The notes under the pieces were generated by a model. The model did not search any database. It was not told the DNA's origin and worked only from the letters and a program-made list of their open reading frames with translations. This document shows, one piece after another, positions 1 through 46,584 of a stretch of 64,000 nt of DNA. How positions within the stretch are numbered: position 1 is the first letter of the stretch; every line of letters begins with the position of its first letter. A program made the translations under genes and the position numbers. The DNA is from Leeuwenhoekiella polynyae (GTDB taxonomy: Bacteria > Bacteroidota > Bacteroidia > Flavobacteriales > Flavobacteriaceae), in contig NZ_QOVK01000011.1 of NCBI RefSeq assembly GCF_004104075.1, forward strand, positions 62,001 through 126,000. The letters run 5' to 3'.

Positions 1-1849
1 CCAGAATGTTTGTGGTTGCCTGGGTTTTTGAATTCACAAACAAGGCCAACGCATTTATAGGAGCGTCCAGGTTTTCAAAATGAAAATCTTTAACTACTCC
101 AATAATTTCCCTTTTGCTGTTTCCGAAAAGCAGGCTTTCTCCTATAGGATTAGATCCCAGTTTAAATTTGCTGATGGCCGCTTCGTTAATGACTACCTGT
201 TCGCTTTTAGAATAATAATGTTCGTCTTCGGGTTTTAGTTCCCAGTTTACGTCCAGGGTTTGAAAGAAGTCGTCATCTACTGCAAAAATAGGCAGGCCTA
301 TAGCATCAGGCATGTGTTCGGAAGAAACAAAAAACATATTGTAGCCCTTGTAAATAGGATATTGAGTTACTGCCGTGTTGGTTACCTGCGAAAGCTTTTC
401 GATCTCATTTCTAAAAGGCGTGCTATTGGTACCCATTGTTTTCTGCAGTGGTAACATCACGACGTCAGAACGATTTAGACCGGTATCAACACCCCGCACA
501 AAATCAAGCTGCTGATGAATGATAATCCCACTCACTAAAAGGGCTATCGCGATCACAAATTGCACAGTGGTACATACCTTACGCAAACGCACCCCTCCCA
601 TTTTTGAAGCACGACTGCTTCTCAGGTTTTCAACCGGATTGAATGCTGACATCACCAGTGCTGGATAAAAACCGGTTGCCAGAATGGTAAAGACCAGCAA
701 ACCGGCGAGTATGCTTAAAAAGGTAGGATTGAGAAAAAAGACAGCATCAATCTCAATACCCAGAATACCAAAAAACCAGGGTTTTAGAACCACACTAAGC
801 ACTACCGAAACCACAAACGCAAGCAGTACATAAAGCGTGGATTCTATATAAAACTGAAAAGCAACACTTTTTCTGCTCGCACCATTTACTTTACGCACGC
901 CGATTTCCTTAGATCGCAAGCTCGCTCGTGCTGTTGATAAGCTCAGATAATTTACTAATGCCAATATTAAAATGAGCACCGCTATTAACGGAAAAATACT
1001 GATGTATCGGGTATTTGAAGCATCTCTTCCGTTTAAATGTTTATCAGTAAGTAAACTCAGACTATACACATCAGTAGCATCTGCATTACCTTGAGTACTT
1101 AATTCCTGCATGGTTTTTTCCACCGTCTTCACATCGGATGCGTTTTTCAGTTTTAAGTAGGTTGGAAACGAACCTAATCTGAAGGCTTCGGAATCAAAAT
1201 CACGCTTATAGTCATTCATGGTAGGCATACTGCTTAACGATGCCACAAAGTCGGGGTGAATACTGGAATTGCTGGGTGTATTTTCCATAACTCCGGTTAC
1301 CGTAAATAGATAGGTACTATCCTTCCGCACCGATATCGACTCCCCTATCGGGTTTTGATTTCCGAAATACTTTTTAGCCATATCCTGGCTAAGCACCAGA
1401 GAATAAGGCTTGGTTAAAGCTTCTGTTTTGCTGCCTTTGAGCAGTTTAAAAGAAAAGAAATCAAAAAAATTAGCATCAGCATAGCTGAAATCCTTTTCAG
1501 AAAACCGGGTACCTGGTTGTTGCGTATTGGTCAGGATTACCGGTTTATACTCATCTTTTAAACGCAGGCTGGAGAAAACTGAAGGACTCGCATTTTCGAT
1601 GAGTGCCCCAACGGTTGCATTCATCGCATTCATATAGATCGTATCGCCGCCCATATTTACCTGAGCCTCTACAGTATACATACGATCAGAATCAGCGTGA
1701 AAGCTATCATAGCTACGCTCGTGTGCCACATAAAACAGAATAAGCGTGCACGCAGTAAGCCCAATTGCCAGGCCACCAATGGTAATAATACCGGAGAGCT
1801 TATTCTTAAGCAGATTCCGCCACGCGATTTTGATATAGTTTCTAAGCAT
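1..1849 (-). CDS. FtsX/MacB-type ABC permease 1, C-terminus beyond the window
   Basis: This is the last permease visible in the ten-gene array; about 616 residues are present. The frame is open from ATG 1849 to the left edge. The start MLRNYIKIAWRN matches its neighbours. One membrane segment (about 20-44) is followed by a MacB-PCD-like extracytoplasmic domain, three membrane segments, a fifth, and most of a second PCD domain. The first cytoplasmic coupling motif reads KEIGVRKVNGAS. By comparison with full-length siblings, roughly 190 residues are missing, including the last three membrane segments. It probably transmits ATPase movement to the periplasm, as in MacB/LolCDE-type systems. The substrate is unknown. 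The family assignment is firm; whether the missing end is intact cannot be seen. Confidence 0.9.
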   Translation of the reverse strand, partial: MLRNYIKIAWRNLLKNKLSGIITIGGLAIGLTACTLILFYVAHERSYDSFHADSDRMYTVEAQVNMGGDTIYMNAMNATVGALIENASPSVFSSLRLKDEYKPVILTNTQQPGTRFSEKDFSYADANFFDFFSFKLLKGSKTEALTKPYSLVLSQDMAKKYFGNQNPIGESISVRKDSTYLFTVTGVMENTPSNSSIHPDFVASLSSMPTMNDYKRDFDSEAFRLGSFPTYLKLKNASDVKTVEKTMQELSTQGNADATDVYSLSLLTDKHLNGRDASNTRYISIFPLIAVLILILALVNYLSLSTARASLRSKEIGVRKVNGASRKSVAFQFYIESTLYVLLAFVVSVVLSVVLKPWFFGILGIEIDAVFFLNPTFLSILAGLLVFTILATGFYPALVMSAFNPVENLRSSRASKMGGVRLRKVCTTVQFVIAIALLVSGIIIHQQLDFVRGVDTGLNRSDVVMLPLQKTMGTNSTPFRNEIEKLSQVTNTAVTQYPIYKGYNMFFVSSEHMPDAIGLPIFAVDDDFFQTLDVNWELKPEDEHYYSKSEQVVINEAAISKFKLGSNPIGESLLFGNSKREIIGVVKDFHFENLDAPINALALFVNSKTQATTNIL

Positions 1850-1859
1850 AATTTCTATC

Positions 1860-1902
1860 TTTTTTCCCCTTGGGGGAAATGTCCGAAGGACAATGGGGAT
1901 TA
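1860..1902. repeat. REP-like palindrome between permeases 1 and 2
   Basis: Two small hairpins lie back to back: TTTCCCC/GGGGAAA (1863-1879) and TGTCC/GGACA (1880-1892), followed by a GGGG tract. The pattern resembles the elements at 4368-4432 and 14249-14261. Short G/C palindromes of this kind are common between flavobacterial genes. It may modulate mRNA stability or simply be a dispersed repeat. Confidence 0.6.
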
Positions 1903-4347
1903 TTACTCCGTTCGTAATGATTCTACCGGGTTTCTTAGGGCTGTTCTTAAGGTTTTAAAACTCATTATTGCCAGAGCGAGCACGACCATTCCTATTCCGC
2001 TTAGGGCAAAAACCCACCAGCTCATTTCGGTTTTGTAGGCATAATCCTGAAGCCAATTGTGTAATCCCCACCAGGCCAAAGGCATGGCAATGAGATAGGC
2101 TAAAAGCACCAGCTTCAAAAAATCTCTACACAACAATAGGTTGAGTTGTACCAGAGATGCTCCCAAAACCTTACGAATGCCTATTTCTTTGGCGCGGCGT
2201 TCGGTGGTATGAATAACCAATCCCAGAAGCCCCAGGCAGCTAATCAATACCGACAATCCGGTAGCCCAGTTGAGCAGGCTTGCAATGCGTTGCTCCTGCT
2301 AGTAAAAGTTGGCAATCGTCTGATCTAAAAAAGTTATTTTAAAATCTTCACCCGGATATATATTTTTGTAAACCTGCTCAATTTCAGCTAGTGTTCCGCT
2401 CCAGCCGGAGGCTTTATCACCCAACACTAAATGCACAGTTCTGAAATTTGTACGGCGTTCTCTACCGGTATCTCCCGTAAGGACTAAGGGTACAATTCCG
2501 GTCTTAAGTGAGCGTTGCTTAAAATCCTTCATTACTCCTACTATCAGTCGTTTATTACTGTTCAGCTCAATATACTTTCCTACGATATCTTCGGGATTGT
2601 GAAAACCAAAAGCCTGCATTCCGGTTTCATTGATGATATATTCTTCGATAGTATCGTTGAGTGGTTTTCTTCCCGCCAAAATATCGATGTTATAAACATC
2701 CAAATAATCGCCATCGCCGTTGAGAACCTGAAGCTCCTGAATGACTTCCTGATTTTTGGTTTTGTAAATTCCCATTCGGGTAGCCATATTGTGAGATGCC
2801 GGAGGCATTCCCCCTAAACTAATCCTGGATATCCCTGGTAAATTCCTGATTTCCTGTTCTAAAACGAAGCGTTTATCGACCTTCTGATCTTCCCACGGAG
2901 TTTGAAGGTATACAACAGCATCTGTTCTAAAACCCAAATCACTATGCATCATAAAGTATATTTGTTTGCTCACCAGCAGGGTGACAATCACAAAAACCTG
3001 AGCAATTACAAATTGCGAAACGGTTAATACCTTGCGCAGAGAACTTTTATTTTCAGATCGTATAAGCTCGCCCTTAAGTGCTCGAGATGGCTTAAATCGA
3101 GACAAAACAAGTCCTGGATAAAAACCGGATAAGAACGTGAGGATCGTAATAAGTCCAAGCACCAGACCGGTAAACCAAGGACTTGCCATAAGCGTAGCAT
3201 CAACCCCTTTAGGGATGAAGTCATCAAATACCTTTAAAGCGAAGATTGATAAAATAACCGAAGACAGCGCTGCAAGTAAGGTTAGCAAAAAGGTTTCTCC
3301 CAGAAACTGAACAATCAACTGTCTTTTTGAACTTCCCAAGGTCTTACGAATACCTATTTCTTTTGCGCGCTGCGTCGCCTGAGCTGTGTTGAGGTTGATG
3401 AAATTGATACTTCCTAAAAGCAGCAAAAAGATTGCTATAAAAATAAGGCTGATCAATATATTCTTATTCGCTTCAGGCCGTGAATAATCGTAAACACCAT
3501 ACTCCTGATCAAAGTGTAAATCTGCAAGTGGCTGCAGATTAAATGTGCGCTTATTATTATATTTTATCATATCAGCATCTACGTGCTGCTCACTTAATGC
3601 TACTAACTGACTCTTTATTTGTGCTGCTGTACTATGCTCAGAAATCTTGATATAAAGTTGCGAGGCATTATTGGTCATCCCCCAGCTATCATTTAGAATC
3701 TGATCTTTACTTCCCGTTTGCTTTGCGGTTGCTAAAGAGACAAACTCATCAAAGAAGAAATCAGAGCGCTTGTCAAAATCTTCAACTATACCGGAAACCA
3801 CAGCCTGAATATCAGCATTATACTCAATAGTCTGCCCCATTACTGCTGTTAAGGGTAGATTAGGAAAATATTCTAAAGCACGTTTACGGGTAAGCACCAC
3901 CTGATTGGGTTTCTGTAGTGCAGTTTCTTTAGAACCGGCAATCCACTTGTATTGAAAGAGATCAAAATAACTCGCCTGAGTGAGTATGATTTTCTCCGGA
4001 TCTTTAAAAATCTGTTCGCTGGAAGCAGCCTTACTTTCACTGATCCACCAATTAAAAAAATAAGCCGATTGCTCAATTCCGGTTAATTCTTCACGTACTG
4101 CAAGTCGCATAGGTGGCGCTACTCCACCGTTTTTCATATCACCCTGAGGGGTTTCAAAATCGGTCACAACGCGATACATACGATCCCCACCCTGGTGAAA
4201 GGTGTCAAACGTAAACTCATAATACACCATCAACCCAATCACAAAAGCAGCGCTTAAACCAATAGCAAGACTGATGATATTTATGGCTGAAAAAAGCTTG
4301 TTGTTCCAGATATTCCGCCAGGCGATTTTGATATAATTTCTAATCAC
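1903..4347 (-). pseudogene. FtsX/MacB-type ABC permease 2, interrupted by an in-frame amber stop
   Basis: Read from GTG 4347, the frame gives a normal permease of about 814 residues (start VIRNYIKIAWRN, end NPVESLRTE), except for one TAG at 2299-2301. The context reads IANFY-stop-QEQRIASLLNW, and the frame is unchanged on both sides. The break falls at the end of the second periplasmic domain, so the first product (2299-4347) lacks the last three membrane segments and the second coupling motif KEIGIRKVLGAS. The downstream piece could only restart at a weak TTG near 2256. An ATG at 4419 would add 24 residues through a palindromic repeat and was not chosen. It could be a recent inactivation, a sequencing error, or a truncated but functional protein. 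No sign of stop-codon recoding is seen. Confidence 0.8.
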
Positions 4348-4432: not shown

Positions 4433-6853
4433 CTATTCTGTTCGTAACGATTCTACCGGATTCTTCAGCGCTGCCCGTATGGTTCTGAAACTTATGGTTA
4501 CCAGTGAGATGAGTAATGCAGCCACACCGGCAGCTATAAACACCCAAATGCTTAACCTAATGTGATTGGCATAATCCTGAAGCCAGTTATAGGCCAGCCA
4601 CCAGGCTACCGGTGCGGCAATAGCAAAACTGATGCCTACCAGTTTTAAAAAGTCTATAGAAAGCAACCAGGTTATGCGGGTAACACTCGCCCCCACCACT
4701 TTACGAACCCCTATTTCTTTACGCCGCTGTGCCACGATAAGCAATGAGATCGCAAACAACCCGATACAACTCAATAAGATCGCCAGTATAGAACCACTGG
4801 TAATCATCGTTGACATTTTTTGTTCAGCTTTAAAGGTGCGGTCTATATTCTCGTCTAAAAACGAACCTAAAAAGTTGGCGTTAGGTTCTATGTCTTTCCA
4901 TATAACTTCCAGAAGAGCCAGTGCGCTGGCGGCTTTATTGGGAGCTGTTTTTATAAAGGCATAATATTTATTAGAATCGGGTTCGAGAAAAACAGTAAGT
5001 GGCTCTACCGCATTATCTAATTTTTGAAAATTATAATCTTTTAAAACACCCAGGACATGATACACCGTACTATCTCCCAGAATCAGACGTGCTTCTAACG
5101 GGTTCTCTTCCTGTAATTGTGCTGCCATACGCTCATTAATCAAAACCCCCAGGCTATCTGTCGCAAACGAGCGGTCAAAACTCCTTCCTGCAAGGAGTTT
5201 GAGGTCTAAAGTTTCCGGGTAATCATAACCCACGGTAAGCATATGCGTGCTGACGCCCCTTCCTTTATAATCAAATCCTAGCTCACTGGTCATCTGCCCT
5301 CCATCTTTGCCCAATCCCAGTATATTGTCTGCTGAAGTAATACTTACTATCTCTGTATGATTCTCCAGTTTATTCCGTAAAAGTTTAACCGCCTGCGCAC
5401 CCACAAGTTTTCCGTTAAGCGGTAGTGAAATCACCTGTTCTTTATTGAAGCCCAGGTTTTTATTGCGCATAAAATCAATCTGTTGCCAAAGTACAAAGGT
5501 GCCACTGATTAACACAATGGCAATACCAAACTGCACCACCATAAGAAAATCGCGCACCCGATTTTTGCGGGTAAGGTTCAACTTCCCTTTTAAAGCCTGA
5601 AGGGTTCCCAATTTAGAAAGTAGTAAAGCAGGATAGCCCCCGGCGATAAGGGTGATTAAAACAAGGGCCGCTACAAAGCCCACAACCATATCAACTGAAA
5701 CAATAGCTTCAAAACTCGCTCGAGTTGAAAAAAGCGTCCTGAATGGATCGACAAGCAGAAAAGCGAGTATACCCCCTAAAATTGCTGCAACCACAAAAAC
5801 CAAAATGCTTTCACCCCAAAACTGAAAAAACAATTGGGCTTTACCTGCACCCAAGGTCTTGCGCATCCCAATTTCACGTAAGCGCTGCGTACTTTTGGCT
5901 ATACTCATATTGATAAAATTCACACAAGCTATAAACAGAATGAGAAAACCAACACCTAAAACCAAATAAGGCATGCTCTTTTCTACCCGGGCTATCCCTG
6001 CATCAAAATTGGCATAGGCCACATCTTCAATAGGAAGAAGCCGTATTTGTCTGTAATTTCCCTGTGCATCAGGCTTTGCCCCGTCCCGTTTTAGCGATTC
6101 TATTTCATCTTCATAATGCAACTGTGAAAATCCTACCGTTGCCTTTTCAAATTGTGCCGCAGTCATCCCTTGAGCAAGTTGCATATACACCTCATGATTG
6201 TTGCTGCTCCAATTGTCTTTTATATCGGCGTATGAATAGGATGCTTGATTGCTAAAATCTAAGGCCAAATCAAACTTAAGGCTGCTCTGCTCTGGGAAAT
6301 CTTCGGTAATGGCAGCGACGGTAAAAGGCTTTTCTTCCCCTTCGGTAATGACGCGTATGGTTTTTCCTAAAGGATCTTGGGTGCCAAAAATGCGATTTGC
6401 AGCATGCACTGTTAGGGTCACGGTACTTTTATCTGATGTAGGCTTGTCCTTATTGCCTTCAATAACCGGGAAACTGAACATGGAAAAGAAATCAGGATCC
6501 ACGTAAGCAGCATTCATACGCAGCTCTTTATCGCCAAAAATCACCAGCACCCCTTTGCCGTTATACCTCGCTATTTGCCTAACACCGGGGACCTCCTCCT
6601 TTAATGCTGGTGTAAACGGCACCGCTTGAGGCTCATTAGCTTCTATACCTTCTGGCGTTTGTTCGGTATAGTAGATTTGATATAGAGACGCTCTATTTTT
6701 ATGGAAACTGTCGTACGAAAGTTCGAAAAAAGCATACATACCTAAAAGTACAGCCACCGCAAAGGCCGTACTCAACCCCACAATATTGAGCAATGTAAAC
6801 GTTTTGTCCTTCCACAGGTTTCTAAAAGCGATTTTGATATAATTTCTGAGCAT
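4433..6853 (-). CDS. FtsX/MacB-type ABC permease 3
   Basis: The 806-residue protein shows the full array architecture. TM1 (about 20-44), a MacB-PCD-like domain and three membrane segments (about 285-410) are followed by TM5 (about 440-460), a second PCD-like domain and three final membrane segments (about 690-790). The gene therefore encodes two four-TM MacB-like halves in one chain. The coupling motif occurs twice, as REIGMRKTLGAG in the first half and KEIGVRKVVGAS in the second. These loops would contact the single ATPase encoded upstream. The start MLRNYIKIAFRN and end NPVESLRTE match the siblings. The substrate is not predictable. Confidence 0.92.
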   Translation of the reverse strand: MLRNYIKIAFRNLWKDKTFTLLNIVGLSTAFAVAVLLGMYAFFELSYDSFHKNRASLYQIYYTEQTPEGIEANEPQAVPFTPALKEEVPGVRQIARYNGKGVLVIFGDKELRMNAAYVDPDFFSMFSFPVIEGNKDKPTSDKSTVTLTVHAANRIFGTQDPLGKTIRVITEGEEKPFTVAAITEDFPEQSSLKFDLALDFSNQASYSYADIKDNWSSNNHEVYMQLAQGMTAAQFEKATVGFSQLHYEDEIESLKRDGAKPDAQGNYRQIRLLPIEDVAYANFDAGIARVEKSMPYLVLGVGFLILFIACVNFINMSIAKSTQRLREIGMRKTLGAGKAQLFFQFWGESILVFVVAAILGGILAFLLVDPFRTLFSTRASFEAIVSVDMVVGFVAALVLITLIAGGYPALLLSKLGTLQALKGKLNLTRKNRVRDFLMVVQFGIAIVLISGTFVLWQQIDFMRNKNLGFNKEQVISLPLNGKLVGAQAVKLLRNKLENHTEIVSITSADNILGLGKDGGQMTSELGFDYKGRGVSTHMLTVGYDYPETLDLKLLAGRSFDRSFATDSLGVLINERMAAQLQEENPLEARLILGDSTVYHVLGVLKDYNFQKLDNAVEPLTVFLEPDSNKYYAFIKTAPNKAASALALLEVIWKDIEPNANFLGSFLDENIDRTFKAEQKMSTMITSGSILAILLSCIGLFAISLLIVAQRRKEIGVRKVVGASVTRITWLLSIDFLKLVGISFAIAAPVAWWLAYNWLQDYANHIRLSIWVFIAAGVAALLISLVTISFRTIRAALKNPVESLRTE

Positions 6854-6877: not shown

Positions 6878-9277
6878 TTATTCGGTCCGTAAGGATTTTA
6901 CAGGGTTTTGTAATGCGGCTTTGATCGCCTGAAAGCTTACGGTAACAAAGGCTATGAGTACAGCTGCCAGCCCAGCAAGTCCAAAAATCCACCAATGTAT
7001 AGAGGTGCGGTAATTAAAATTTTGCAACCACTCACTCATAATCCAATATGCAAAAGGGGATGCCAGCACAAAGGCAATACCTACCAGTTTTAAAAAGTCT
7101 TTGGAAAGCAGTGCCGTGACCCCGGCAACACTCGCGCCTAGTACTTTACGTACACCGATTTCTTTGGTGCGTTGCTCTGCCATAAAAGCCGCCAGGCCAA
7201 ATAATCCCAAACAGGCAATGAAGATGGCCAAAACCGAGAAAAGTGTCGCGGTACGAGCCGTACGCTCTTCTGAAGCATACAATTGCGCCACATGCTTGTC
7301 TACAAAGGCATAATCAAAAGCGGTGTTGGGTAAATTCTCGTTAAAGACTAGCTCCAGACCTTTGATCAATTGCTGCAGATTCTGAGTATTGTATCGTATC
7401 AACAAGGTGCGTATGCCTTCCGGAGCGTCATTGGCTTTATAATACATATACCCGCCGCTGTCTTCTTTGAGTGAATTGAAGTTGAAATTCGCAACGACCC
7501 CGGTGATGATCGCTTCCCCACCCAGCTCTGTATTTATCAGCTTTCCTATTGCATCTTCAGGAGATTTATAATTGAGATAGCTGAGTATTTTTTCATTGAT
7601 CAGGGTGTAGACCAGCGAATCTCCCTCGGGAATGTTTTGAGGTAGTTCAGCGCCTGCAAGAAGCTTCAACTTTAAGGTTTCAACCACGTTACCTTCAGTA
7701 CGGCAACTGGCGATGGGCATTCCGGTTTGATCGGTACTCAATCGGCGTACAGACCTCCCACTCTCATCAGCCCCGGGAATGGATTGCACAGCGGCAATAC
7801 CTTCAACGTAGGGTTTTCGGTCTAAAGCATTTTCTAAATTTCTGATCTGCTGCTTACTTTCTGCAGATTTTATCGAAACTGCCACCACTCCATCAGGATT
7901 GTAACCCAGATTTTTATTCTTTATAAAATCCATTTGCTGAATGATTACCGTAACCGCAATAATGAGAACGATAGAAGCCGCAAACTGAAAAACCACAAGG
8001 CCTTTTCGCACAAATTCAGAAGCGGTATGCTTTTTTCTGGACTTATTTACCAGAGAAAGCGGCGAAATACCGGTCATCGATAGCGCAGGATAACTGCCCG
8101 CAAAGAGTGTGACGATCAACCAGATTAAACCCAGTCCAATTAAAATAGGCGGAGCTAACAAATCCTCGTAATTCAAGGCGTTACCCGTAAAACTTTGAAA
8201 CCACGGTAATATCAGGAATGAAACCGCGTAGGCCAATACCACTGCGATACAAGCCAGGATTGCTGTTTCTACATAAAACAGAACAAGCATATGCTTTTGA
8301 GTCGCGCCCAAAACTTTATTTACTCCAATGCTCTTTCTACGCTTTCTCGAATTTGCAGTGGCCAAATTCATATAATTGATGCAGGCAATTACCAAGACCA
8401 AAACAGACAGGAATATCAGACTTCTAATAGTTGTGATGCTTCCCAACCGGGTTGCGTAGCCATCGCGTATACCTGCCGAATACAGGTGTATTTTTGTAAG
8501 CGGTTGCAGGTAAAACTGCGTGAAATACTGTCCTTCTTTAGGCACATAGGCATCGATTAATTGGGTAGCCTGAGTTTCAACCTGAGCGACCTGAGCCTGT
8601 GGCTGCAGCTGTACGTAGGTTTCATAACTGGCATTGCTCCAATACACATTAGTACCCATCCAGGAATCCAAAATATGATAGATCATATCACAGTCTATCA
8701 CACTATTTTCGGGCAGGTCTTTATACACTCCTGAAACCTGAAGTGTATCCCGGTTGTTTACCGTTATGAATGCTCCCAAAGCCGATTTTCTACCAAAAAA
8801 CCGTTCCTTCGAAGTTTTAGAAATCACAATAGAATTCGGGTTTGCGAAAGCATTTTTAGCCTCACCTTCTATAAACTTGAAGTCAAACATCTCAAAGACG
8901 GTTGAATCTGCGAGGTAAAGTCTGTCTTCTGTAAAATTCTTTGCCCCTATTTTTAAGGATGCCGTCACCCCAAAATCATCTTTGATAAGCCGGGTCATCT
9001 TTTTAACCTGTGGAATATCTTTTACCATCGCCGGTCCTACTGCATTGGGTAGTTCGGCCCAGGTCTCAAAGTTGTATTCTTCAGAAGTCTCCATATTTAC
9101 GCGGTAAATATCGGGAGCATGTGAATACATTTTATCAAAGCTGAGTTCGCTATTTACAAACGAAAACAGCACGATACACACGCATAAGCCCACTACCAGT
9201 CCTATGATGTTTAACACCGTAAACAAGCGGTTTGCTTTGATATTCCGCCAAGCGATTTTGATATAGTTTCTAAGCAT
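6878..9277 (-). CDS. FtsX/MacB-type ABC permease 4
   Basis: The 799-residue protein starts MLRNYIKIAWRN and ends NPVKSLRTE. It has the same two-half, eight-TM plan as permease 3, with TIGR-like periplasmic text such as KIHLYSAGIRDGY before TM2. The first coupling motif is degenerate, reading KSIGVNKVLGA where most siblings have KEIGVRK; the second is canonical (KEIGVRKVLGAS). This suggests unequal roles for the two halves when they dock on the ATPase. It is separated from both neighbours by the conserved 24-nt linker, which points to co-translation and recent duplication. Confidence 0.92.
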   Translation of the reverse strand: MLRNYIKIAWRNIKANRLFTVLNIIGLVVGLCVCIVLFSFVNSELSFDKMYSHAPDIYRVNMETSEEYNFETWAELPNAVGPAMVKDIPQVKKMTRLIKDDFGVTASLKIGAKNFTEDRLYLADSTVFEMFDFKFIEGEAKNAFANPNSIVISKTSKERFFGRKSALGAFITVNNRDTLQVSGVYKDLPENSVIDCDMIYHILDSWMGTNVYWSNASYETYVQLQPQAQVAQVETQATQLIDAYVPKEGQYFTQFYLQPLTKIHLYSAGIRDGYATRLGSITTIRSLIFLSVLVLVIACINYMNLATANSRKRRKSIGVNKVLGATQKHMLVLFYVETAILACIAVVLAYAVSFLILPWFQSFTGNALNYEDLLAPPILIGLGLIWLIVTLFAGSYPALSMTGISPLSLVNKSRKKHTASEFVRKGLVVFQFAASIVLIIAVTVIIQQMDFIKNKNLGYNPDGVVAVSIKSAESKQQIRNLENALDRKPYVEGIAAVQSIPGADESGRSVRRLSTDQTGMPIASCRTEGNVVETLKLKLLAGAELPQNIPEGDSLVYTLINEKILSYLNYKSPEDAIGKLINTELGGEAIITGVVANFNFNSLKEDSGGYMYYKANDAPEGIRTLLIRYNTQNLQQLIKGLELVFNENLPNTAFDYAFVDKHVAQLYASEERTARTATLFSVLAIFIACLGLFGLAAFMAEQRTKEIGVRKVLGASVAGVTALLSKDFLKLVGIAFVLASPFAYWIMSEWLQNFNYRTSIHWWIFGLAGLAAVLIAFVTVSFQAIKAALQNPVKSLRTE

Positions 9278-16726: not shown

Positions 16727-19123
16727 CTATTGAGTTCTTAAGCTTTTCACAGGGTTAGCAAATGCTGCTTTTAGCGCCTGAAAGCTTACCGTAAACAAGG
16801 TAATCCCCAATGCTCCCGCACCTGCCGCGATAAAAATCCAAATGGAAATCTCGGTGTGGTACGTAAATTTCTGTACCCAATTATGCATTAAATAATAGGA
16901 AACGGGAGCTGCGATAAGCAGTGCAATAAACACCAGTACTAAAAAATCTTTAGACAAAAGCATCCAAAGATTAGCAACTGATGCGCCCAGCACTTTGCGC
17001 ACTCCTATTTCCTTGGTACGTTGTTCTGCTACAAAAGAGGCTAATCCAAATAAACCGAGACAACTTATTACTATTGCTAGTGCGGTAAATACTTTTGCAA
17101 GACTTGCAATACGATCTTCTTCAGCAAATTTCTTCGCATATTCCTGATCTATAAAATCATAATGAAAAAGGGCATTGGGAAAGTGTTCTTTAAAAACTTT
17201 CTCTACCGTCGCTAAATTTTCACGCATGCTGTTTTCCGGATTCAGGCGCAGATTCCAATAACTGGCATTATTAAACCCATCAAACATATAAATGGCTTGT
17301 TTCACGGGTTCATAGGGAGATTGCACCACCATATCTTTCATAACACCTATAATTTGTAGTTTACGCATACCGCCCTCATTACTACCTTGTGTAAGGTATT
17401 TGCCCACAGGATCCTGCAGTCCCATATAGGCTACTGCAGACTCATTTAGAATTACCGCGGTAGAGTCTGTTGGAAACTCCCGGGAAAAACCACGTCCCGC
17501 AGCCATTTTAATTTTTAAGGTCTCCACGTATTCGTACGAGATCTGTGTATAGGCAAGGTCTTCTTGAAAACCTTCAGGCTTACCTTCCCAGCCATAGCCG
17601 CTTTGATTAGACCACACCTCAGTTGTTGGGCTGCTTGAAGTTGCCATTTCTAATACGGCACCCGATTTTTTAAACTGGTTGCGCATCATATCATGCTTCC
17701 CTAAAAACTGATTACTCATCACAGGGATTTGTATCAGGTTTTCCGTGGTGTATCCAGTAGGTCTGTTTTTGCTGAAATCAATCTGCGACATAACGATAAG
17801 CGTTCCAATAATCAGAGCTGCTGAAACACTAAACTGGGTTACCACAAGTATTTTCCGCGGAAGGGTAGCCAGTTTACCCACTTTAAAGGTTCCTTTCAAG
17901 ACTTTAATAGGTCTAAACGAAGACAAATACAAAGCAGGATAACTTCCTGAAACCAGAGCGGTAAAAGCTATGAAGAGTAAAATTACTACCCAAAATACCA
18001 GATTGCTCCACGGAAAGGTAATGGCTTTATCTGCTAATGTGTTAAAGGGCTTTAAAAATACTAGCGTGATTGCCAATGCCAGAATACAGGCCATAATCAC
18101 GACAAGAAAGGATTCGGTTAAAAACTGCTTTATAAGTTGGTTTTTTGTAGAACCTATTGTTTTGCGAATGCCTACTTCAATAACTCGTTTCTCACTTCGT
18201 GCAGTCGCCAGATTCATAAAATTTATACACGCCAATAGCAACACAAATGCCCCAATTATCCCAAAAAGCCACACATTCTCAATACGACCACCGGTTTGAA
18301 CACCATCTTCAAAGTTTGAATGCAAATGCCATTCTCGCATAGGAAATAAAAACAACTGTGGATTGAACGGTGCTACCTCTGCATCACTCTCTTTTTTGAC
18401 CGAAGTAATTGCAGCACTTGCACTTGCCAGATCCACCCCATCGGCCAATTCAACAAAAAGCTGAAAAGAGTTGTTTCCCCATTGATCTATCGACGATTCA
18501 ATCCAATCTTTTTTTGCATAAAGTGACCATGGCATAAGATATTCCATATCCTTAAAATCATTTCCTTCAGGGATATCTTCATAAATCGCACTCACGATCA
18601 TATGGTCAACATCATTTACTTTAATGATTTTACCCATCGCATTCCCGGCACCGAACATCGTCTTCGCAGCCGTTTGAGAAAGCATAATCGCATTAGATGA
18701 TTTTAAGGCAGCAGCATCTCCCTGTATTATTTTAAGGTTGATCATCTGGGTGAATTCTGGCTGAACAGAATATCCGTCAAGTGAGATTGCAGTCTCTTTA
18801 TAATTAAAATTTCTACTTTTTGACCAGGAAGCCATGCTTAGATACTTAAACTTAGATTCAAAGTTTTCTCGAAGTGCAAATTCTAAAGGCCGCGGTATTG
18901 CGGGCCCGGTTTGGGTCTTGCCATTAAAAGTCTGTGACTGGTATACCTGAGCAAGTCTCGGTTTGTTCTCAAAATAACTGTTGAAATTAACCTCATCTGC
19001 AACCCAAAGTCCTATCATCAACGTAACGGCCATTCCTAAAGCAAGGCCAAAAATATTTATGGCAGAATAGCCTTTGTGTTTTAAAAGGTTTCTAAAGGCA
19101 ATGTTTATATAGTTCTTAAACAT
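16727..19123 (-). CDS. FtsX/MacB-type ABC permease 8
   Basis: The 798-residue protein starts MFKNYINIAFRN and ends NPVKSLRTQ; the final Q replaces the E of its siblings. Coupling motifs are IEVGIRKTIGST and KEIGVRKVLGAS. It is closest to permease 9: both have W-H-L-(H/R)-S-x-F-x-D-G before TM2 and FMNLATARSEKR after it. The 59-bp spacer to permease 9 (19124-19182) keeps a partial linker (tgattttttgattga), suggesting a decayed copy. Confidence 0.92.
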   Translation of the reverse strand: MFKNYINIAFRNLLKHKGYSAINIFGLALGMAVTLMIGLWVADEVNFNSYFENKPRLAQVYQSQTFNGKTQTGPAIPRPLEFALRENFESKFKYLSMASWSKSRNFNYKETAISLDGYSVQPEFTQMINLKIIQGDAAALKSSNAIMLSQTAAKTMFGAGNAMGKIIKVNDVDHMIVSAIYEDIPEGNDFKDMEYLMPWSLYAKKDWIESSIDQWGNNSFQLFVELADGVDLASASAAITSVKKESDAEVAPFNPQLFLFPMREWHLHSNFEDGVQTGGRIENVWLFGIIGAFVLLLACINFMNLATARSEKRVIEVGIRKTIGSTKNQLIKQFLTESFLVVIMACILALAITLVFLKPFNTLADKAITFPWSNLVFWVVILLFIAFTALVSGSYPALYLSSFRPIKVLKGTFKVGKLATLPRKILVVTQFSVSAALIIGTLIVMSQIDFSKNRPTGYTTENLIQIPVMSNQFLGKHDMMRNQFKKSGAVLEMATSSSPTTEVWSNQSGYGWEGKPEGFQEDLAYTQISYEYVETLKIKMAAGRGFSREFPTDSTAVILNESAVAYMGLQDPVGKYLTQGSNEGGMRKLQIIGVMKDMVVQSPYEPVKQAIYMFDGFNNASYWNLRLNPENSMRENLATVEKVFKEHFPNALFHYDFIDQEYAKKFAEEDRIASLAKVFTALAIVISCLGLFGLASFVAEQRTKEIGVRKVLGASVANLWMLLSKDFLVLVFIALLIAAPVSYYLMHNWVQKFTYHTEISIWIFIAAGAGALGITLFTVSFQALKAAFANPVKSLRTQ

Positions 19124-19182: not shown

Positions 19183-21540
19183 CTACTCTGTCCTTAAACT
19201 TTTTACCGGATTAGCAATTGCTGCTTTAACCGCCTGAAAACTCACCGTTAACAAAGCAATTCCTATGGCAACAAATCCTGCAAAAACAAATACCCACATA
19301 TTTATTGAAATGCGATAGGCGAATCCCTGTAACCACGAGTACATTAAGTACCACGCCAGCGGAACGGCAATAAGTAGCGCGACCAACACCAGAACTATAA
19401 AATCTCTGGATAATAAGCCTACAATACCGGCAACAGTAGACCCTAAAACTTTGCGTACCCCTATTTCTTTACGACGCTGCTCTGCGGTATAAGCCGAAAG
19501 CCCAAAGAGACCTAAACACGAGATTAATATTGCAAGCAGGGCAAAAATGCGGGAGAGATTCCCTATCAATTGTTCGCTTTTGAAACGGGCATCAAAAGCA
19601 TCATCAACAAAGCGGTATTCAAAAGGATACCCGGGGTTGTATTCTTTTAATGTTGACTCAATGCTTCTCAAAACCTCGGTTGTAGCGTATTTTGGGTTTG
19701 TTTTTAAATACATGTACTGTGCTTCAGGGGGATAATTATAAAACATAACCGGATCACTGGTTCCGTACATGTCGCCGTATAAATAGTCATTAGTCACCCC
19801 AATGACGGTATACATATCCCCGTACCGGTCTATAGTCTTGCCCAGTGCACTACCAGTGCCCATCAATTGTGCAAAAGATTCGGTAATGATAACGTGTGAA
19901 CTGTCATTTACAACTACAGGACTAAAACCACGTCCCTCAATCAATTCGATTCCCGCTGTTTTAAAATACTCCTCATTTATGTATCTATAAGAAACAAGTA
20001 TATCTTCAGTACTGCTCCCTCCCTGCCATCTTAAACCAGAGCCGTTATTCCCAGCAGAAAGTATATTAGAATTTGACAATCCTAAACCAGTAATCATCCC
20101 TGTATTTTTCAAACCTTCTGCTATAGCCTTTCGGTTTTTGATCAAATCTCCATTTGCAGGTATCTCGATCAGGTTGTCCTTATCAAGTCCTAAATCGCGA
20201 TTTTTTACATGTTGTACCTGCTGGTAAACCAGTAACGTACTAATGATAAACACTATTGAAATCACAAACTGGGTAATGACCAGCCCTTTGCGAATAAACC
20301 CGGCTCCCTTAGACTGAATTCGGTTTCCTTTAAGCACGTCAATAGGTTTAAAAGAAGAGAGGTAGAACGCAGGGTATAAACCGGCAAATATCCCACAGGT
20401 TAGGGTTATAGCTAAAAGCGAAAGCAGATGCGATGGTATAGTTAAACCCAAAGCAAGTTGTTTGTCTATTAGCGCGTTGAATGCCGGAATAATGAGGATC
20501 AAAACTAAAACACTTAATACAGCTGCAAATATTGCAGTCATCAGAGCCTCTGTAATAAACTGAAAAATTAATTGCTGTTTGTCTGAACCTAAGGTTTTAC
20601 GCACGCCTACCTCATTGGCACGCTTCTCGCTACGGGCAGTGGCTAAATTCATAAAATTGATGCAGGCAATAACTAAAATAATAAGCGCTATAAAACTGAA
20701 CAACCGCACATATTCTACGCGACCACCTACCACTTCACCATCTTTAAAGTCGGATCGTAAATGCCAGTCTGCTGCCTTATGTAAGATAGCTTTGGTGTCT
20801 TCATCGCCGGTTTTGGCTGGTAAGATGTGTTTGACTTTTTCATTGACGCTATTGAAGTCAGCATCCGGTGATAGCTTTACAAAGGTCTCTGTAAAATTGC
20901 TGCCATATTCCTGCGTCCAGGGTTTGTCGTATGTAAAATTTTCAAATGGAACCAACCAGTTAAAACTATAGGTCGTATTTACCGGCAGGTTTTCAACCAC
21001 ACCGGTTATTTGAAAATTGTCCTGTTGATTAATCCGGATTACTTTTCCTAAAATATTGGTTGGATTTTCAAAAAGAATTTGTGCTACCTCTTTTGTAATT
21101 ACAATACTTTCTTTCATCTTGAAAGCATCAGTAGCATTGCCCTCTATAAATTTCAAATCAAACAGATCAAAAATATCTGGATCTGCATAGGAACCGGCAC
21201 TGCTTATTGAAGAGGAGTTTACGGTAAATAGGAAATCTCTATTTCGCAATCTTGCAGCTTTGGTAATTTCCGGAATTTCAGTTTTTAAAGCTGCGGCTAA
21301 TGGGCCGGGTGTTGCTTGAAAAAAAGTACGAACCTGTCCGTCGTATTTTTGATTGGTGGGTACGCTGTAAACCAGTTCCTGATCTGTGACAATGGTGTCA
21401 AAGCTCATTTCATCTTCTACCCAAAGCAGGATCAAACTGGCACACGTGATCCCAATGGCCAGTCCAAAAATATTAAGCGCACTGTAGCCCTTTTTCTTCC
21501 AAAGGTTTCTAAAGGCGATTTTGATATAATTTTTAAGCAT
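19183..21540 (-). CDS. FtsX/MacB-type ABC permease 9
   Basis: The 785-residue protein starts MLKNYIKIAFRN and ends NPVKSLRTE. Coupling motifs are NEVGVRKTLGSD in the first half and KEIGVRKVLGST in the second. It shares the FMNLATARSEKR segment with permease 8, and the pair probably arose from one duplication. The 24-nt linker (21541-21564) separates it from permease 10. Both halves look intact. Confidence 0.92.
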   Translation of the reverse strand: MLKNYIKIAFRNLWKKKGYSALNIFGLAIGITCASLILLWVEDEMSFDTIVTDQELVYSVPTNQKYDGQVRTFFQATPGPLAAALKTEIPEITKAARLRNRDFLFTVNSSSISSAGSYADPDIFDLFDLKFIEGNATDAFKMKESIVITKEVAQILFENPTNILGKVIRINQQDNFQITGVVENLPVNTTYSFNWLVPFENFTYDKPWTQEYGSNFTETFVKLSPDADFNSVNEKVKHILPAKTGDEDTKAILHKAADWHLRSDFKDGEVVGGRVEYVRLFSFIALIILVIACINFMNLATARSEKRANEVGVRKTLGSDKQQLIFQFITEALMTAIFAAVLSVLVLILIIPAFNALIDKQLALGLTIPSHLLSLLAITLTCGIFAGLYPAFYLSSFKPIDVLKGNRIQSKGAGFIRKGLVITQFVISIVFIISTLLVYQQVQHVKNRDLGLDKDNLIEIPANGDLIKNRKAIAEGLKNTGMITGLGLSNSNILSAGNNGSGLRWQGGSSTEDILVSYRYINEEYFKTAGIELIEGRGFSPVVVNDSSHVIITESFAQLMGTGSALGKTIDRYGDMYTVIGVTNDYLYGDMYGTSDPVMFYNYPPEAQYMYLKTNPKYATTEVLRSIESTLKEYNPGYPFEYRFVDDAFDARFKSEQLIGNLSRIFALLAILISCLGLFGLSAYTAEQRRKEIGVRKVLGSTVAGIVGLLSRDFIVLVLVALLIAVPLAWYLMYSWLQGFAYRISINMWVFVFAGFVAIGIALLTVSFQAVKAAIANPVKSLRTE

Positions 21541-21564: not shown

Positions 21565-23967
21565 TCATTCGGTACGTAACGACTTTACTGGGTTAGCAAT
21601 AGCTGCCTTAATAGCCTGAAAGCTTACCGCTATAATAGCCGTAATTAAGAGCGCAGCACCCGTTGTGACATATACCCACCAACTAATCATAGTTTTGTAG
21701 GCAAAACCATCTAACCAAGAGGTCATCAAGTACCAACCCACGGGCATCGCAAAAACAAAAGCAATGCACACCCATTTTAGGAAATCTTTGTTCAATAACG
21801 TTAGGATTTGAAATACCGATGCCCCACTTACCTTTCTAATCCCGATTTCTTTTCTACGTTTTAAAATTGTGTATGAGGAAAGACCGAAAAGACCGAGTGC
21901 AGCAATGAAAATGACGAGCCCAGTAAAAATTTGAAATGCAGTAGTGAACTTTTTATCCTCTTTATACTGGGAGTCAAATTTTTTGTCCAGAAAGGTATAG
22001 TCCATGGTGCTTTGTGGAAAAATAGTTTTCCACTTCTTCTGTATGGCTGCAAGACTTTTTGCTATTCCTACTGCTGAATTTTCACGCGTATTTATTTTCA
22101 CCAAAATATTATCCATCCCAAAAACCTGAACAATCATTAATGGTTCGATCTTATCTTTTAATCCAAAGTGGTGATAATCTTCAACAACCCCTGAAACCTT
22201 CCAGTCCTGACCCCAAAAATTTACCGTCTCCCCCACAAGTTCTTCAGGATTAACATAGCCCAGTTGCCTGGCAAATGTTTCATTCATAACAATATTCTCC
22301 CTACTTGGCAAAAAGGCCTCGCCTGCTGCAAAGTTTAGATCGAGCGTTCTAAAATATTCAGGCGTCGCGCTATAGAGATAGAACAATTGGCGCTCATCAG
22401 TCTCACCCTTGGGGCTCGTGATCCCAACAGTTGAAGAAAGATTGTCATACCCATCACCCGGATAGGTACTGGATCGAGAAACCATATCCACAAACGGTAA
22501 TTTTTTGAGCTCACCTTCCAGAGTTTTAAATTTTTGTTTTGTTAAAGAGTCGGTTTGAGATTCTAATATTTCACCTTGGAGCGCAACTACCTGAGCAAGG
22601 TCAACCCCTATGGGCTGTTCCCTTAGAAAATTGAGTTGTTTGACCACAACCAATGTTCCAATAATTAGGACTGCAGTAGCAAAAAACTGAAGTGTGATAA
22701 GCCCTTTACGTATCCCAATGCTTCCGCGATTGACCTGTACTTTTCCCTTTAGTGCTTTGACCGGAGTAAATCCACTTATTACAAAGGCCGGATAAAGCCC
22801 CGCCACAATGCTCCCGATTAGAATAAATCCAAAAATAGACAGTGCCCCGGAGTAATTTGTAAAATCAAGTTGCAGCGGCTTACCAACAAAATCATTAAAA
22901 ACAGGCAGCAGCAGATAAACCAATAATATTGCCAAAAGGAAAGCAAGAACATTGAGTACAAAAGATTCCGTTAGGGATTGCAGCACCAACTGGCCTCGAT
23001 TGGCTCCGGCTACTTTTCTCACACCTACTTCGCGAGAGCGTTCCAGTGATTTTGCTGTTGCTAGATTGACGTAGTTTAGCCAGGAAAGAATAAGGATCAC
23101 AAAAGCAATGGCAGAAAGAAAACGAACACGCTTTACGCTTCCGTTAGCTTCTGCTTCATAAGGCTTATCAGAGTACAAATGAATGTCTGACAGGGGTTCT
23201 ATATTGTGTCTTTCATCTGGGTCTTCTTCAAAATCACTAGCCATTATCTTTGCCTGTAAAGATTTGGTATCAGCCTGGTCACTCACCTGAATGTACGTGA
23301 AGAAATTGTTCTGATTCCAGTTCAATTCGGCCTGCCCAGACATCGCATCCCAGGTTTTTATGGTTTCAAACGAGATGAAAAAATTCATCCTCAAGTGTGT
23401 ATTTTCCGGAATATCTTCAATAACAGCGACCACCTCCATCAAACTCTCGCTTCCATAAAAAACAGACAAGGTCTGACCGATAGGATTTTCGTTTCCAAAA
23501 ATCTTTTTAGACAGCGACTGTGTAAGGATTATGGTATTGGGTTTAGAAAAATCTTCTCGCGAACCTTTAAGCAACGTAGGTTTGAAAATATCAAAATAGG
23601 TAGGATCGGTCAATGAACCGTTGGGCTGCTCGATCACTTTTTCTCCACTTATAAATGTAACCTTTTCTAGACGATACAATCTGACCTGCTCCTCAATTTC
23701 GGGGAATTCACTTTTTAAAGTAGGACCCGTGAGATTGTAGGTTTGTGCATCGCCGGGAACATACTGCCCACCTTCAATATAATCCATGTATACCCTAAAA
23801 ATATTTTCAGATCCGTCAAAAGTATCATAGCTCTTTTCGTAGTTCACATAAAGTAAAATCACAATGAACGCCGCTACACCTAAAGCAAGTCCAAAAATAT
23901 TCAGAAGCGAGAACGACTTGTTTTTCAACAAATGTCTAAAAGCAATCTTGAAATAATTTTTGAGCAT
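21565..23967 (-). CDS. FtsX/MacB-type ABC permease 10 (promoter-proximal)
   Basis: The 800-residue protein is the first permease after the ATPase. It starts MLKNYFKIAFRHLLKNK and ends NPVKSLRTE. Coupling motifs are REVGVRKVAGAN (first half) and KEIGIRKVSGAS (second half). The second periplasmic domain includes FWGQDWKVSGVVEDYHHFG, a variant of the GVxxDFxF segment found in all members. A 90-bp spacer separates it from the ATPase. As the gene nearest the ATPase it may represent the ancestral partner, but position alone does not prove this. Confidence 0.92.
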   Translation of the reverse strand: MLKNYFKIAFRHLLKNKSFSLLNIFGLALGVAAFIVILLYVNYEKSYDTFDGSENIFRVYMDYIEGGQYVPGDAQTYNLTGPTLKSEFPEIEEQVRLYRLEKVTFISGEKVIEQPNGSLTDPTYFDIFKPTLLKGSREDFSKPNTIILTQSLSKKIFGNENPIGQTLSVFYGSESLMEVVAVIEDIPENTHLRMNFFISFETIKTWDAMSGQAELNWNQNNFFTYIQVSDQADTKSLQAKIMASDFEEDPDERHNIEPLSDIHLYSDKPYEAEANGSVKRVRFLSAIAFVILILSWLNYVNLATAKSLERSREVGVRKVAGANRGQLVLQSLTESFVLNVLAFLLAILLVYLLLPVFNDFVGKPLQLDFTNYSGALSIFGFILIGSIVAGLYPAFVISGFTPVKALKGKVQVNRGSIGIRKGLITLQFFATAVLIIGTLVVVKQLNFLREQPIGVDLAQVVALQGEILESQTDSLTKQKFKTLEGELKKLPFVDMVSRSSTYPGDGYDNLSSTVGITSPKGETDERQLFYLYSATPEYFRTLDLNFAAGEAFLPSRENIVMNETFARQLGYVNPEELVGETVNFWGQDWKVSGVVEDYHHFGLKDKIEPLMIVQVFGMDNILVKINTRENSAVGIAKSLAAIQKKWKTIFPQSTMDYTFLDKKFDSQYKEDKKFTTAFQIFTGLVIFIAALGLFGLSSYTILKRRKEIGIRKVSGASVFQILTLLNKDFLKWVCIAFVFAMPVGWYLMTSWLDGFAYKTMISWWVYVTTGAALLITAIIAVSFQAIKAAIANPVKSLRTE

Positions 23968-24057: not shown

Positions 24058-24762
24058 TTAAACTTCTAAGGTTTTACTTTTATACTCTGAAAGTATATTT
24101 TCAGTCACCTTTTGCCCGTCTAGCATTCTAATAATGCGGTGACTGTATTTGGCGTCGTGCTCACTGTGCGTTACCATAATGATGGTGGTACCGGCTTCGT
24201 TGAGTTCCGTAAGCAAATCCATCACCTCATTCCCGTTACTGCTGTCCAAATTACCCGTAGGTTCATCAGCAAGAATGAGTTTAGGATTATTCACGACTGC
24301 ACGGGCCACGGCTACACGTTGTTGCTGTCCTCCAGATAATTGCTGCGGAAAGTGTTTACGACGGTGCATGATTTGCATTTTCTCAAGCACTTCGTCTACG
24401 CGTTTTTTACGCTCTGCTGGTTTTACACCGGTATAAATCAACGGAAGCTCTACGTTTTCAAAAACGGTGAGTTCGTCAATCAGATTAAAGCTTTGAAAAA
24501 CAAAACCGATGTTATGCTTGCGCAAATCGGCACGCTTACGCTCGTTAAAACCGGCTACTTCAATACCGTTAAAAATAAAACTGCCACCGTCCGGGTCATC
24601 CAGAAGTCCCAGGATGTTGAGCAAGGTTGATTTACCACAACCCGAAGGGCCCATTACGGCAACAAATTCACCTTCCTGCACCTGAAAAGACAGTTTGTTG
24701 AGGGCAATGGTGCGCACCTCTTCGGTGGCATAATACTTTTCTAAGTCTGTTATTTTAATCAT
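24058..24762 (-). CDS. ABC transporter ATP-binding protein (MacB/LolD-like)
   Basis: This 234-residue soluble ATPase has Walker A GPSGCGKST (38-46), Q-loop Q90, signature LSGGQQQRVAVARA (142-155), Walker B LILADE (162-167) with D-loop NLDS (171-174), and H-loop H199. The size and motifs match the LolD/MacB/FtsE group that works with FtsX-type permeases. It is the only ATPase gene in the cluster and is presumed to serve all ten permeases. It lies 57 bp after the adaptor gene and 90 bp before permease 10. Function is firm as an ABC ATPase; the shared-subunit role is inferred from layout. Confidence 0.95.
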   Translation of the reverse strand: MIKITDLEKYYATEEVRTIALNKLSFQVQEGEFVAVMGPSGCGKSTLLNILGLLDDPDGGSFIFNGIEVAGFNERKRADLRKHNIGFVFQSFNLIDELTVFENVELPLIYTGVKPAERKKRVDEVLEKMQIMHRRKHFPQQLSGGQQQRVAVARAVVNNPKLILADEPTGNLDSSNGNEVMDLLTELNEAGTTIIMVTHSEHDAKYSHRIIRMLDGQKVTENILSEYKSKTLEV

Positions 24763-24819
24763 CTAAGAAAGAATTAGGTTTATAAATGCTAAGATTAGTG
24801 TTATCATCGTTTTTTAGTT

Positions 24820-26073
24820 TTAATCTTGAAGTACCAGTTCCTGTACTTCTTCATAATTATCGTAACTGCTGGTGATCACCCGGTCTCCAGGTTCGAGTCC
24901 GCTTAAGACTTCATAATATTCGGTGTTCTGGCTACCCAATGAAATGTCAGCTTTATAGGCGGTACTTCCGTCTTCACTTACTTTAAAAATCCAGTTACCA
25001 CCGGTTTCCTGAAAGAATCCACCTTTGGGAATTAATAAAGCTTGTTTTTCCTGGCTAAGCGCAACACGAATCTGTAGTGTTTGCCCGCGGCGTATGCCCT
25101 CAGGCACTTCAGATTCAAATTCCATATCTACCTGAAACCTTCCGTTTGTCACTTGAGTGTATACTTTTTTGATTACCAGCGTGTAGTTTTTTCCGTCAAA
25201 ATCAAACGAGCCTTTTTGACCCGTGTAAATTCTCGAAATGTAATGTTCGTCTATGTCAACACGTACTTTATACCCGCTCAACACGTCGATTTGCCCCAGC
25301 CGCTCCCCTTTATTTTTAGACTGGCCAATCTCAGCATCAAGTGAAGTGAGTTGCCCGTCAACCGGCGCCCGAACCACCAAATCGGCTACCTTGCGACGCA
25401 TCAATTCTAAAGCATTCTGGGTACGTGCATACGAGCTTGAAACCTGATTTTTTTCCTGTTTCACAGCGATAGAATCCTGAGCCAGAATTTGCTCTGCCAG
25501 CTGCATACGTTCCTTCTGGTAGTTGTAGTCATTTTTTGATTTAATCAAATCCTGTCTTGCTATCGCATCTTTATCGTAAAGCTTTTGATTGAGTTCGTAC
25601 ACCCGTTTAGCTTCGATGAGGCTATTCTCCACATCGGTATATTGATTGAGTTTCACAATGGTATTTTGACGCGCGGCATTCTGCGAAATCTGCATTTGGG
25701 TCAACAAGTTATATACCTGGGTTTCCTGATTTACAAGGCTTAATTCCAGATCGGTATTTGAAAGGCGTAAAATGGGTTCGCCTTTTTTCATCACCGCGCC
25801 GTCTTCTACAAACTTTTCTTCTACGCGACCACCTTCAAGCGCATCAAGATAAATCGTGGTAATAGGCATCACCACCCCATTCACCGGAATGTTTTCCTGA
25901 AAAACATCTTGCTTAACCGTTGCGATGCTCAGACGCTCTTTTTGTACATTGAGTTTTGAATTGCCTGTAGTAGATAAGATCACAAAAATAATAAGTGCAG
26001 CTAAGGCAATACCGCCTGCGATCATCAGTATTTTTTGAGTGGTAAAGCGTTTCTTTTCTAAAGGGATATCCAT
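24820..26073 (-). CDS. Periplasmic adaptor, MacA/HlyD-like membrane-fusion protein
   Basis: The 417-residue protein has a short cytoplasmic N-terminus and one membrane anchor (about 15-35). A split lipoyl-like domain follows (FVEDGAVMKKGEPILRL around 85-105, later APVDGQLTSLDAEIGQS), enclosing a long helical hairpin of about 115-220. A beta-barrel and membrane-proximal domain end the chain. Such adaptors link an inner-membrane permease to a TolC-like outer-membrane channel. No TolC homologue is present in this window. It is the first gene of the array transcript. It probably sets the export direction (outward), but the cargo is unknown. Confidence 0.93.
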   Translation of the reverse strand: MDIPLEKKRFTTQKILMIAGGIALAALIIFVILSTTGNSKLNVQKERLSIATVKQDVFQENIPVNGVVMPITTIYLDALEGGRVEEKFVEDGAVMKKGEPILRLSNTDLELSLVNQETQVYNLLTQMQISQNAARQNTIVKLNQYTDVENSLIEAKRVYELNQKLYDKDAIARQDLIKSKNDYNYQKERMQLAEQILAQDSIAVKQEKNQVSSSYARTQNALELMRRKVADLVVRAPVDGQLTSLDAEIGQSKNKGERLGQIDVLSGYKVRVDIDEHYISRIYTGQKGSFDFDGKNYTLVIKKVYTQVTNGRFQVDMEFESEVPEGIRRGQTLQIRVALSQEKQALLIPKGGFFQETGGNWIFKVSEDGSTAYKADISLGSQNTEYYEVLSGLEPGDRVITSSYDNYEEVQELVLQD

Positions 26074-46573: not shown

Positions 46574-46584
46574 CTGAATTGGAT

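Follow-up and report, generated by a model that had tools for sequence, protein, structure and literature searches.

A row of eleven two-half FtsX/MacB permeases between two ATPase genes in Leeuwenhoekiella polynyae, a candidate platform for export with shared ATPases

In the usual picture of ATP-binding cassette (ABC) exporters, one permease works with its own ATPase. MacB is a fused ATPase and permease, the darobactin exporter DarBCD has one permease in the system, and permeases of the ADOP type are described as orphans, the family model (TIGR03434) having been built on permeases without neighbouring ATPases. Here we describe a row of FtsX/MacB permease genes in Leeuwenhoekiella polynyae (Flavobacteriaceae), located in a 64,000-nucleotide stretch (the window; assembly GCF_004104075.1, contig NZ_QOVK01000011.1, positions 62,001 to 126,000 of the forward strand) and continuing past its first base. 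Several described systems provide points of comparison: MacB acts as a homodimer (PMC5985334); in YbbAP, one two-half permease is bound by two ATPase subunits through two coupling helices, and the complex binds the periplasmic hydrolase TesA (PMC12646458); with the shared ATPases MsmK/MsmX, one ATPase serves several sugar importers (PMC4519317); and ADOP-type permeases reach 28 and 33 copies in two Dyadobacter genomes (PMC11573002).

The array is real. Ten FtsX/MacB permease genes occupy the minus strand between 1 and 24 kb of the window, eight of them intact, one split by a frame break and one cut by the window edge. With the flanking sequence added, the row on this strand consists of an adaptor gene, a first ATPase gene (ATP1), 11 permease genes (P1 to P11), a second ATPase gene (ATP2) and a TolC gene, and it diverges from a histidine kinase and an NtrC-type regulator (Table 1). 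The first-pass annotation of the window had counted ten full-length permeases behind one ATPase and one adaptor. The ten genes stand, although only eight are intact in the window and the row totals 11; the single ATPase was an artifact of the window edge, which hid ATP2 behind the last permease; the single adaptor was borne out by a genome search, which found one DarC-like adaptor, beside the array. A profile search of the genome placed all 11 permeases of this type in the row, the sole other match at E 1e-20 being a half-size permease (85 bits). This concentration, together with the recurrence of the arrangement across Bacteroidota, puts the row beyond chance. We read the locus, with a probability of roughly 0.55, as a MacAB/DarBCD-like tripartite export platform of the type VII ABC class in which alternative permeases would share one or two ATPases, the adaptor and the exit duct.

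Ten permeases are intact, eight of them within the window and two, P10 and P11, once the flanking sequence is added; they are 785–823 residues (aa) long. Each is, as first supposed, a complete two-half chain, with eight hydrophobic transmembrane (TM) helices by hydropathy (10/10) and two coupling loops. MacB_PCD and FtsX domains scored above the Pfam cut-offs in all five window permeases scanned, a set that includes the edge-cut gene and the longer piece of the split gene, and FtsX matches extend across the row. These domains characterize the type VII ABC (MacB/FtsX) superfamily, as do coupling helices between TM2 and TM3 of each half, which are present in the sequences and in a model of P1. 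The P1 AlphaFold model, built on a 52-row alignment (pLDDT 86.5, pTM 0.83), shows eight long helices, with one mixed helix-strand domain between helices 1 and 2 and another between helices 5 and 6, and places short helices at residues 311–319 and 705–713, within the coupling loops. Among solved structures, the nearest in sequence are a putative ABC permease domain (3is6; E 3.5e-29) and MacB (5lil; E 9.8e-24). P9 is broken just before TM6; its two pieces each share 95–97% identity with the closest intact homologues, those of G002 and G003, and so close a match (~96%) points to a break that arose very recently or to an error in the assembly.

The permeases are about 32% identical to one another, and at most 41% for any pair in this genome. 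In regional comparisons, which like the recombination and coupling-residue counts cover open reading frames (ORFs) of at least 760 aa, paralogues within the genus are 48–62% identical at the ends and coupling loops and about 22% identical in the periplasmic domains (2859 distant pairs). The conserved ends and divergent middles that had been remarked on in the window were thereby recovered, and they are a trait of the permease family. Across 44 locus pieces the loop-1 glycine is present in 433/433 permeases, the loop-2 arginine in 432/433 and the loop-2 glycine in 433/433. Chimeric permeases produced by recombination were considered and rejected: only 3/3081 pairs looked mixed, every one involving a single protein (G008_8), which indicates that the permeases evolve as units.

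The array shares with MacAB-TolC a MacA-like adaptor, a TolC-type duct, both encoded in one gene row, the MacB_PCD and FtsX domains, and the coupling helices. It differs in that the ATPase is not fused to a four-TM permease; the ATPase genes are separate, the permeases have eight TM helices, each permease holds both halves, and many permeases accompany one adaptor. The permeases score 29–44 bits against the MacB equivalog model (cut-off 966). DarBCD is similar in its separate ATPase, its adaptor and its two-half permease, although no array protein reaches the cut-offs of the DarBCD models (NF038007, NF038008, NF038010): ATP1 scores 298 and ATP2 246 (cut-off 375), the adaptor 184 (450) and the permeases at most 151 (700). 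The ADOP model aligns with the 800-aa two-half permease over most or all of its length, with E about 1e-80 for intact genes. The scores are 166–270 bits (cut-off 622), the two lowest belonging to the cut and the split gene; unlike the orphans on which that model was built, the array has an ATPase at each end, plus the adaptor and TolC. YbbAP-TesA has in common with the array a fused two-half permease with two periplasmic domains, a separate ATPase and two coupling helices, whereas YbbP has ten TM helices, two of them linking helices as in YbbAP/BceAB systems, and the array permeases have eight in hydropathy profiles (10/10) and in the P1 model (PMC12646458). A YbbAP-like pair is encoded elsewhere in this genome. 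The MsmK/MsmX case concerns sugar importers, with no exporter-type permease array. A search of the open literature returned no account of ATPase-bracketed permease arrays among the matches listed, which is weak evidence of novelty, as subscription journals lie mostly outside such a search.

ATP1 and ATP2 are 48–54% identical in 31 loci and form separate clades (support 0.89 and 0.94), with one outlier, G033a, from a different system. Walker A, LSGGQ and ADEPTG are present in 71/71 ATPases; the H-loop reads TH in 70/71 and SH in one ATP2. In the 10 loci of the genus that were compared, ATP1 identity is 90% or higher, and ATP1 is found at 93–100% identity in 11 of the 12 other genomes of the genus, G009 being without it. 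A search of the L. polynyae genome with the DarD model, followed by classification of the hits, found no dedicated ATPase for each permease; the presence of such ATPases was what the first-pass annotation had named as incompatible with its idea of permeases competing for shared parts. The other close ATPases in the genome resemble YbbA (beside its own YbbP), LolD, FtsE, DarD and MacB, all below model cut-offs. The DarD-like one adjoins two half-size permeases, and the MacB-like one, on C3, has no permease within the 5 kb read. A distant MacA-type adaptor (36 bits) belongs to another system, L003.

In an even draw of genomes across the phylum, ATP1 (at least 281 bits) is present in 41/148 genomes by manual count; in 24 of the 41, another ATPase gene follows on that strand no more than 60 kb downstream. 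This draw, in which the best 19 candidates per genome were scored, is less biased than the hand-picked loci. We annotated 44 Bacteroidota loci carrying ATP1 at over 300 bits; two pieces of G030 (G030a, G030b) and G033a, which is another system, were set aside from the counts, and the bracketing, type and cross-genus counts below use ORFs of at least 700 aa. ATP2 lies within the stretch read in 37/44 loci. Of the seven others, G008 has an ATP2 detected by tblastn only, G033b has three permeases, G012a reaches the end of the stretch taken, and the remaining four (Emticicia sp. BO119, G013, G088, G101) are taken up below. In 35 of the 37 two-ATPase loci, 2–40 full-length permeases lie between ATP1 and ATP2, a range that is no population estimate, the loci having been chosen from best matches or picked from the phylum draw by inspection. 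In the other two (G186, G198) the ATPase genes adjoin, with zero permeases between them. The recurring frame consists of the divergent kinase and NtrC regulator, then the adaptor, ATP1, the permeases and ATP2, with TolC last or preceding the adaptor. The largest array, in Ulvibacterium marinum, has 40 permeases and one split over 107 kb. The number of permeases per ATPase, which had been proposed as a check on relatives, thus differs widely between the same ATPases. Opposite-strand permeases are absent from the 44 annotated loci; one each was seen in the first-scan loci L034 and L049. A rule that two-permease loci lack ATP2 (G013, G088, G101) was discarded on account of G180, which has two permeases and ATP2. 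In some distant loci (L187, L188, L034, L072) ATP1 and ATP2 are adjacent and do not bracket permeases. Coupling-loop identity compared by locus showed no clear difference between ATP1-only and two-ATPase loci.

The set of permeases turns over rapidly within the genus. Complete loci carry 3 to 11 permeases between the ATPases (L. blandensis MED217 has 6), and the 81 genus permeases that reach 700 aa sort into 25 types, of which 13 have a single member (mean Jaccard 0.28 over 12 genomes). No type occurs in all 12 genomes, and the widest occurs in 10. Eight of the 11 array permeases have a counterpart at least 50% identical in another genus; the best such identity is 47% for P11 and only 38% for P4 and P10. 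P1 is at most 37% identical to permeases in other loci of the genus, yet 64% identical to one in Gillisia. In 60 orthologue pairs over 75% identical in both periplasmic domains, the ratio of nonsynonymous to synonymous rates (dN/dS) is about 0.065 overall, 0.035 in the coupling loops, and 0.079 and 0.063 in the two periplasmic domains; these values are rough, with a median dS of about 1.1 and saturation in 6/60 pairs. The 25 least diverged pairs listed give pN/pS of 0.05–0.17. The pattern fits a large set of functional proteins, each with a fixed task, that come and go as entire genes; it is at odds both with decay and with an arms race centred on the periplasmic domains.

These data bear on the possibility that the permeases are mostly accumulated paralogues of a widespread duplicated-permease family, of which one or two use these ATPases while the rest are idle or ATP-independent. 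The best NCBIfam matches of the permeases are to ADOP, a model of permeases without neighbouring ATPases, one of the 11 permeases is frame-broken here, and split permeases occur in G004, G008, G121 and G131, as an idle set would have it. The purifying selection, the conserved coupling residues, the scarcity of short ORFs (just 14/407 permease ORFs fall short of 700 aa, counting those at stretch ends) and the retention of most types across genera argue in the other direction, and we regard this explanation as very improbable. The split single permeases of the four relatives (L092 in G004, L100 in G008, L132–L137 in G121, L138–L143 in G131) may be assembly errors or real breaks.

The window kinase has two TM helices joined by a 7-residue loop and no periplasmic sensor domain. 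The same form, with a loop of 0–14 residues, is found in 22/29 loci; the remaining 7 profiles either miss a helix or include an extra segment, and none of them shows a large periplasmic domain. In many loci the two-component pair is divergent from the operon. This configuration would suit permeases that are mainly receptors, their periplasmic domains binding different envelope-stress ligands and permease and ATPase together signalling to the adjoining kinase, as in Bce modules, and a 2025 scan reports that COG0577 permeases are enriched under predicted sigma-54 promoters in Bacteroidia (PMC12316311). Bce permeases, however, have two linking helices and one periplasmic domain (PMC5985334, PMC12646458), whereas the array permeases have eight TM helices and two such domains; the adaptor and TolC point to export; and the kinase may itself sense through a cytoplasmic PAS-like region, visible by eye, where Pfam returned the ATPase domain alone. 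We consider the receptor explanation unlikely.

Intergenic gaps in the row are 24–90 nt, the split gene excepted, and no terminator-like site falls in a gap between 6500 and 26300, all 26 sites in this interval being intragenic (17.6 expected). A TGGCAC-N4-TTGC element precedes the adaptor, its spacing one base short of the sigma-54 consensus. It is present in 8/12 loci of the genus (it is lacking in G001, G006, G007 and G008), at -42 in five and at -25, -45 and +7 in the others, positions that depend on the ORF starts chosen. As a sigma-54-type promoter element it is only suggestive. No full-consensus sigma-54 site was found at the promoter, and the lone match, at 38919, is at chance level (2.53 expected).

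Larger arrays (G121, G044 and others) contain genes between the permeases whose starts resemble signal peptides by eye, for example L136:15917-16636, L118:16481-17215 and L134:13294-14397. One family of 13 related ORFs proved to be DUF2807 (head GIN) in the two members scanned; others include a DUF2911 protein and some that look hydrolase-like by eye. The proposal that the 13 ORFs are partners of one permease type was rejected, as they are not tied to a single type. Such genes would favour, for some permeases, a role in extracting lipids or hydrophobic compounds for periplasmic enzymes or binding proteins, as the binding of TesA by YbbAP illustrates (PMC12646458), with the adaptor and TolC serving only some of the permeases. 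The lack of a tie to one permease type tells against this role, as does the window array, which is without any inter-permease gene, and the ten TM helices of YbbP are a further difference. As an account of the whole locus we find it distinctly doubtful.

Returning to an export platform with shared parts, the locus would be one operon, co-transcribed under the control of the divergent two-component pair and encoding a single adaptor and exit duct, two ATPases from different clades, and eleven alternative two-half permeases, one of them frame-broken in the assembly. Each permease would probably recruit two ATPase subunits through its two coupling helices, as in YbbAP (two copies of ATP1, two of ATP2, or a mixed pair), and would then dock to the adaptor and TolC that all permeases have in common. 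The divergent periplasmic domains would decide the compound or partner handled, perhaps one cargo or partner per permease. The result would be a family of exporters differing in the permease alone, with the permease set a fast-changing gene pool and the engine constant.

Several observations weigh against this interpretation. The docking of a two-half permease to MacA/TolC is proposed by analogy. A control set was drawn from 20 loci in which the stretch read (up to about 22 kb) includes no ATPase gene; its 38 permeases have the same coupling loops, with loop identities of 55.6/61.7% (655 of 703 pairs) versus 48.6/62.2% here; loops are equally kept without a nearby ATPase, and their retention is therefore not specific to sharing. 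A stricter two-motif pattern matches 387/433 permeases, not all. The locus can lack ATP2: in Emticicia sp. BO119, 26 permeases accompany ATP1 alone in the 140 kb read, with other ATPases possible elsewhere in its genome, and in G013, G088 and G101 the stretch read contains two permeases but no ATP2. An array served by one ATPase, as first proposed for L. polynyae, is wrong here and may hold for the Emticicia locus. The MacB-like ATPase on C3, having no adjoining permease, could serve some of the array permeases, and the genes between permeases in large arrays may mean that some permeases serve periplasmic partners and not export. Finally, the suggested comparison of selection on periplasmic domains and coupling loops gave the lowest dN/dS in the loops, and diversifying selection on the periplasmic domains was not found in the 60 pairs, which are under purifying selection instead.

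The locus is a mid-size member of a widespread two-ATPase system, for which the sharing idea is plausible. More tentatively, and with the balance of our judgement against it in this full form, Bacteroidota may possess a platform in which a fixed set of ATP1, ATP2, adaptor and duct drives up to ~40 interchangeable eight-TM mechanotransmission permeases, encoded in a bracketed operon and drawn from a fast-changing, family-wide pool, the permeases perhaps doubling as sensors for the sensor-less kinase. If tens of permeases did share two ATPases and one adaptor, specificity would evolve by the gain and loss of single genes, the number of pumps judged from the number of permeases would mislead, and the poorly understood ADOP-type permeases would gain a testable energy source and context.

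Table 1. Genes and sites of the permease row and its control region. Positions are those of the window; L001 coordinates refer to the stretch outside the window, past base 1.
Feature	Position	Strand	Basis or remark
MacA/HlyD-type periplasmic adaptor, DarC-like, 417 aa, one N-terminal TM	24820..26073	-	model/Pfam matches, hydropathy
ATPase 1 (DarD/LolD/MacB-type), 234 aa; Walker A, LSGGQ, Walker B and H-loop intact	24058..24762	-	
Permease P1, 800 aa, 8 TM, two periplasmic domains	21565..23967	-	Pfam, hydropathy, AlphaFold model
Permease P2, 785 aa, 8 TM	19183..21540	-	
Permease P3, 798 aa, 8 TM	16727..19123	-	
Permease P4, 790 aa, 8 TM	14271..16643	-	
Permease P5, 823 aa, 8 TM	11747..14218	-	
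Permease P6, 806 aa, 8 TM	9302..11722	-	
Permease P7, 799 aa, 8 TM	6878..9277	-	
Permease P8, 806 aa, 8 TM	4433..6853	-	
Permease P9, split by frame break	1903..4347	-	117-aa ORF 1903-2256, 706-aa ORF 2299-4419
Permease P10, 798 aa in full, cut by window edge	1..1849, far end L001:11453	-	
Permease P11, outside window	L001:9039-11399		
ATPase 2, 225 aa, 52% identical to ATPase 1, outside window, after last permease	L001:8299-8976		
TolC-type outer membrane protein gene, outside window	L001:6791-8215		
NtrC-family response regulator: receiver, sigma-54 AAA+, Fis HTH; divergent from adaptor	26279..27625	+	
Histidine kinase, about 447 aa from likely ATG (ORF from 27531)	27615..28958	+	
TGGCAC-N4-TTGC element, 42 nt before adaptor start	26102..26115	-	sigma-54-like

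Beyond the kinase, the window contains a TonB-dependent receptor gene (30415-32823, minus strand) whose best model match, below cut-off, is the myxochelin siderophore receptor MxcH, followed by two alkaline-phosphatase-type genes with SusD and TonB-dependent receptor genes (33066-40909, minus strand) that resemble a phosphate-related uptake locus. A GH43 glycoside hydrolase (46579-48516, plus strand) and a heavy-metal P-type ATPase with an N-terminal metal-binding domain (49327-51759, plus strand) lie further along, and a GH43-like gene, recognized by eye only, is found on the other side of the array (L001:4262-5641, minus strand).

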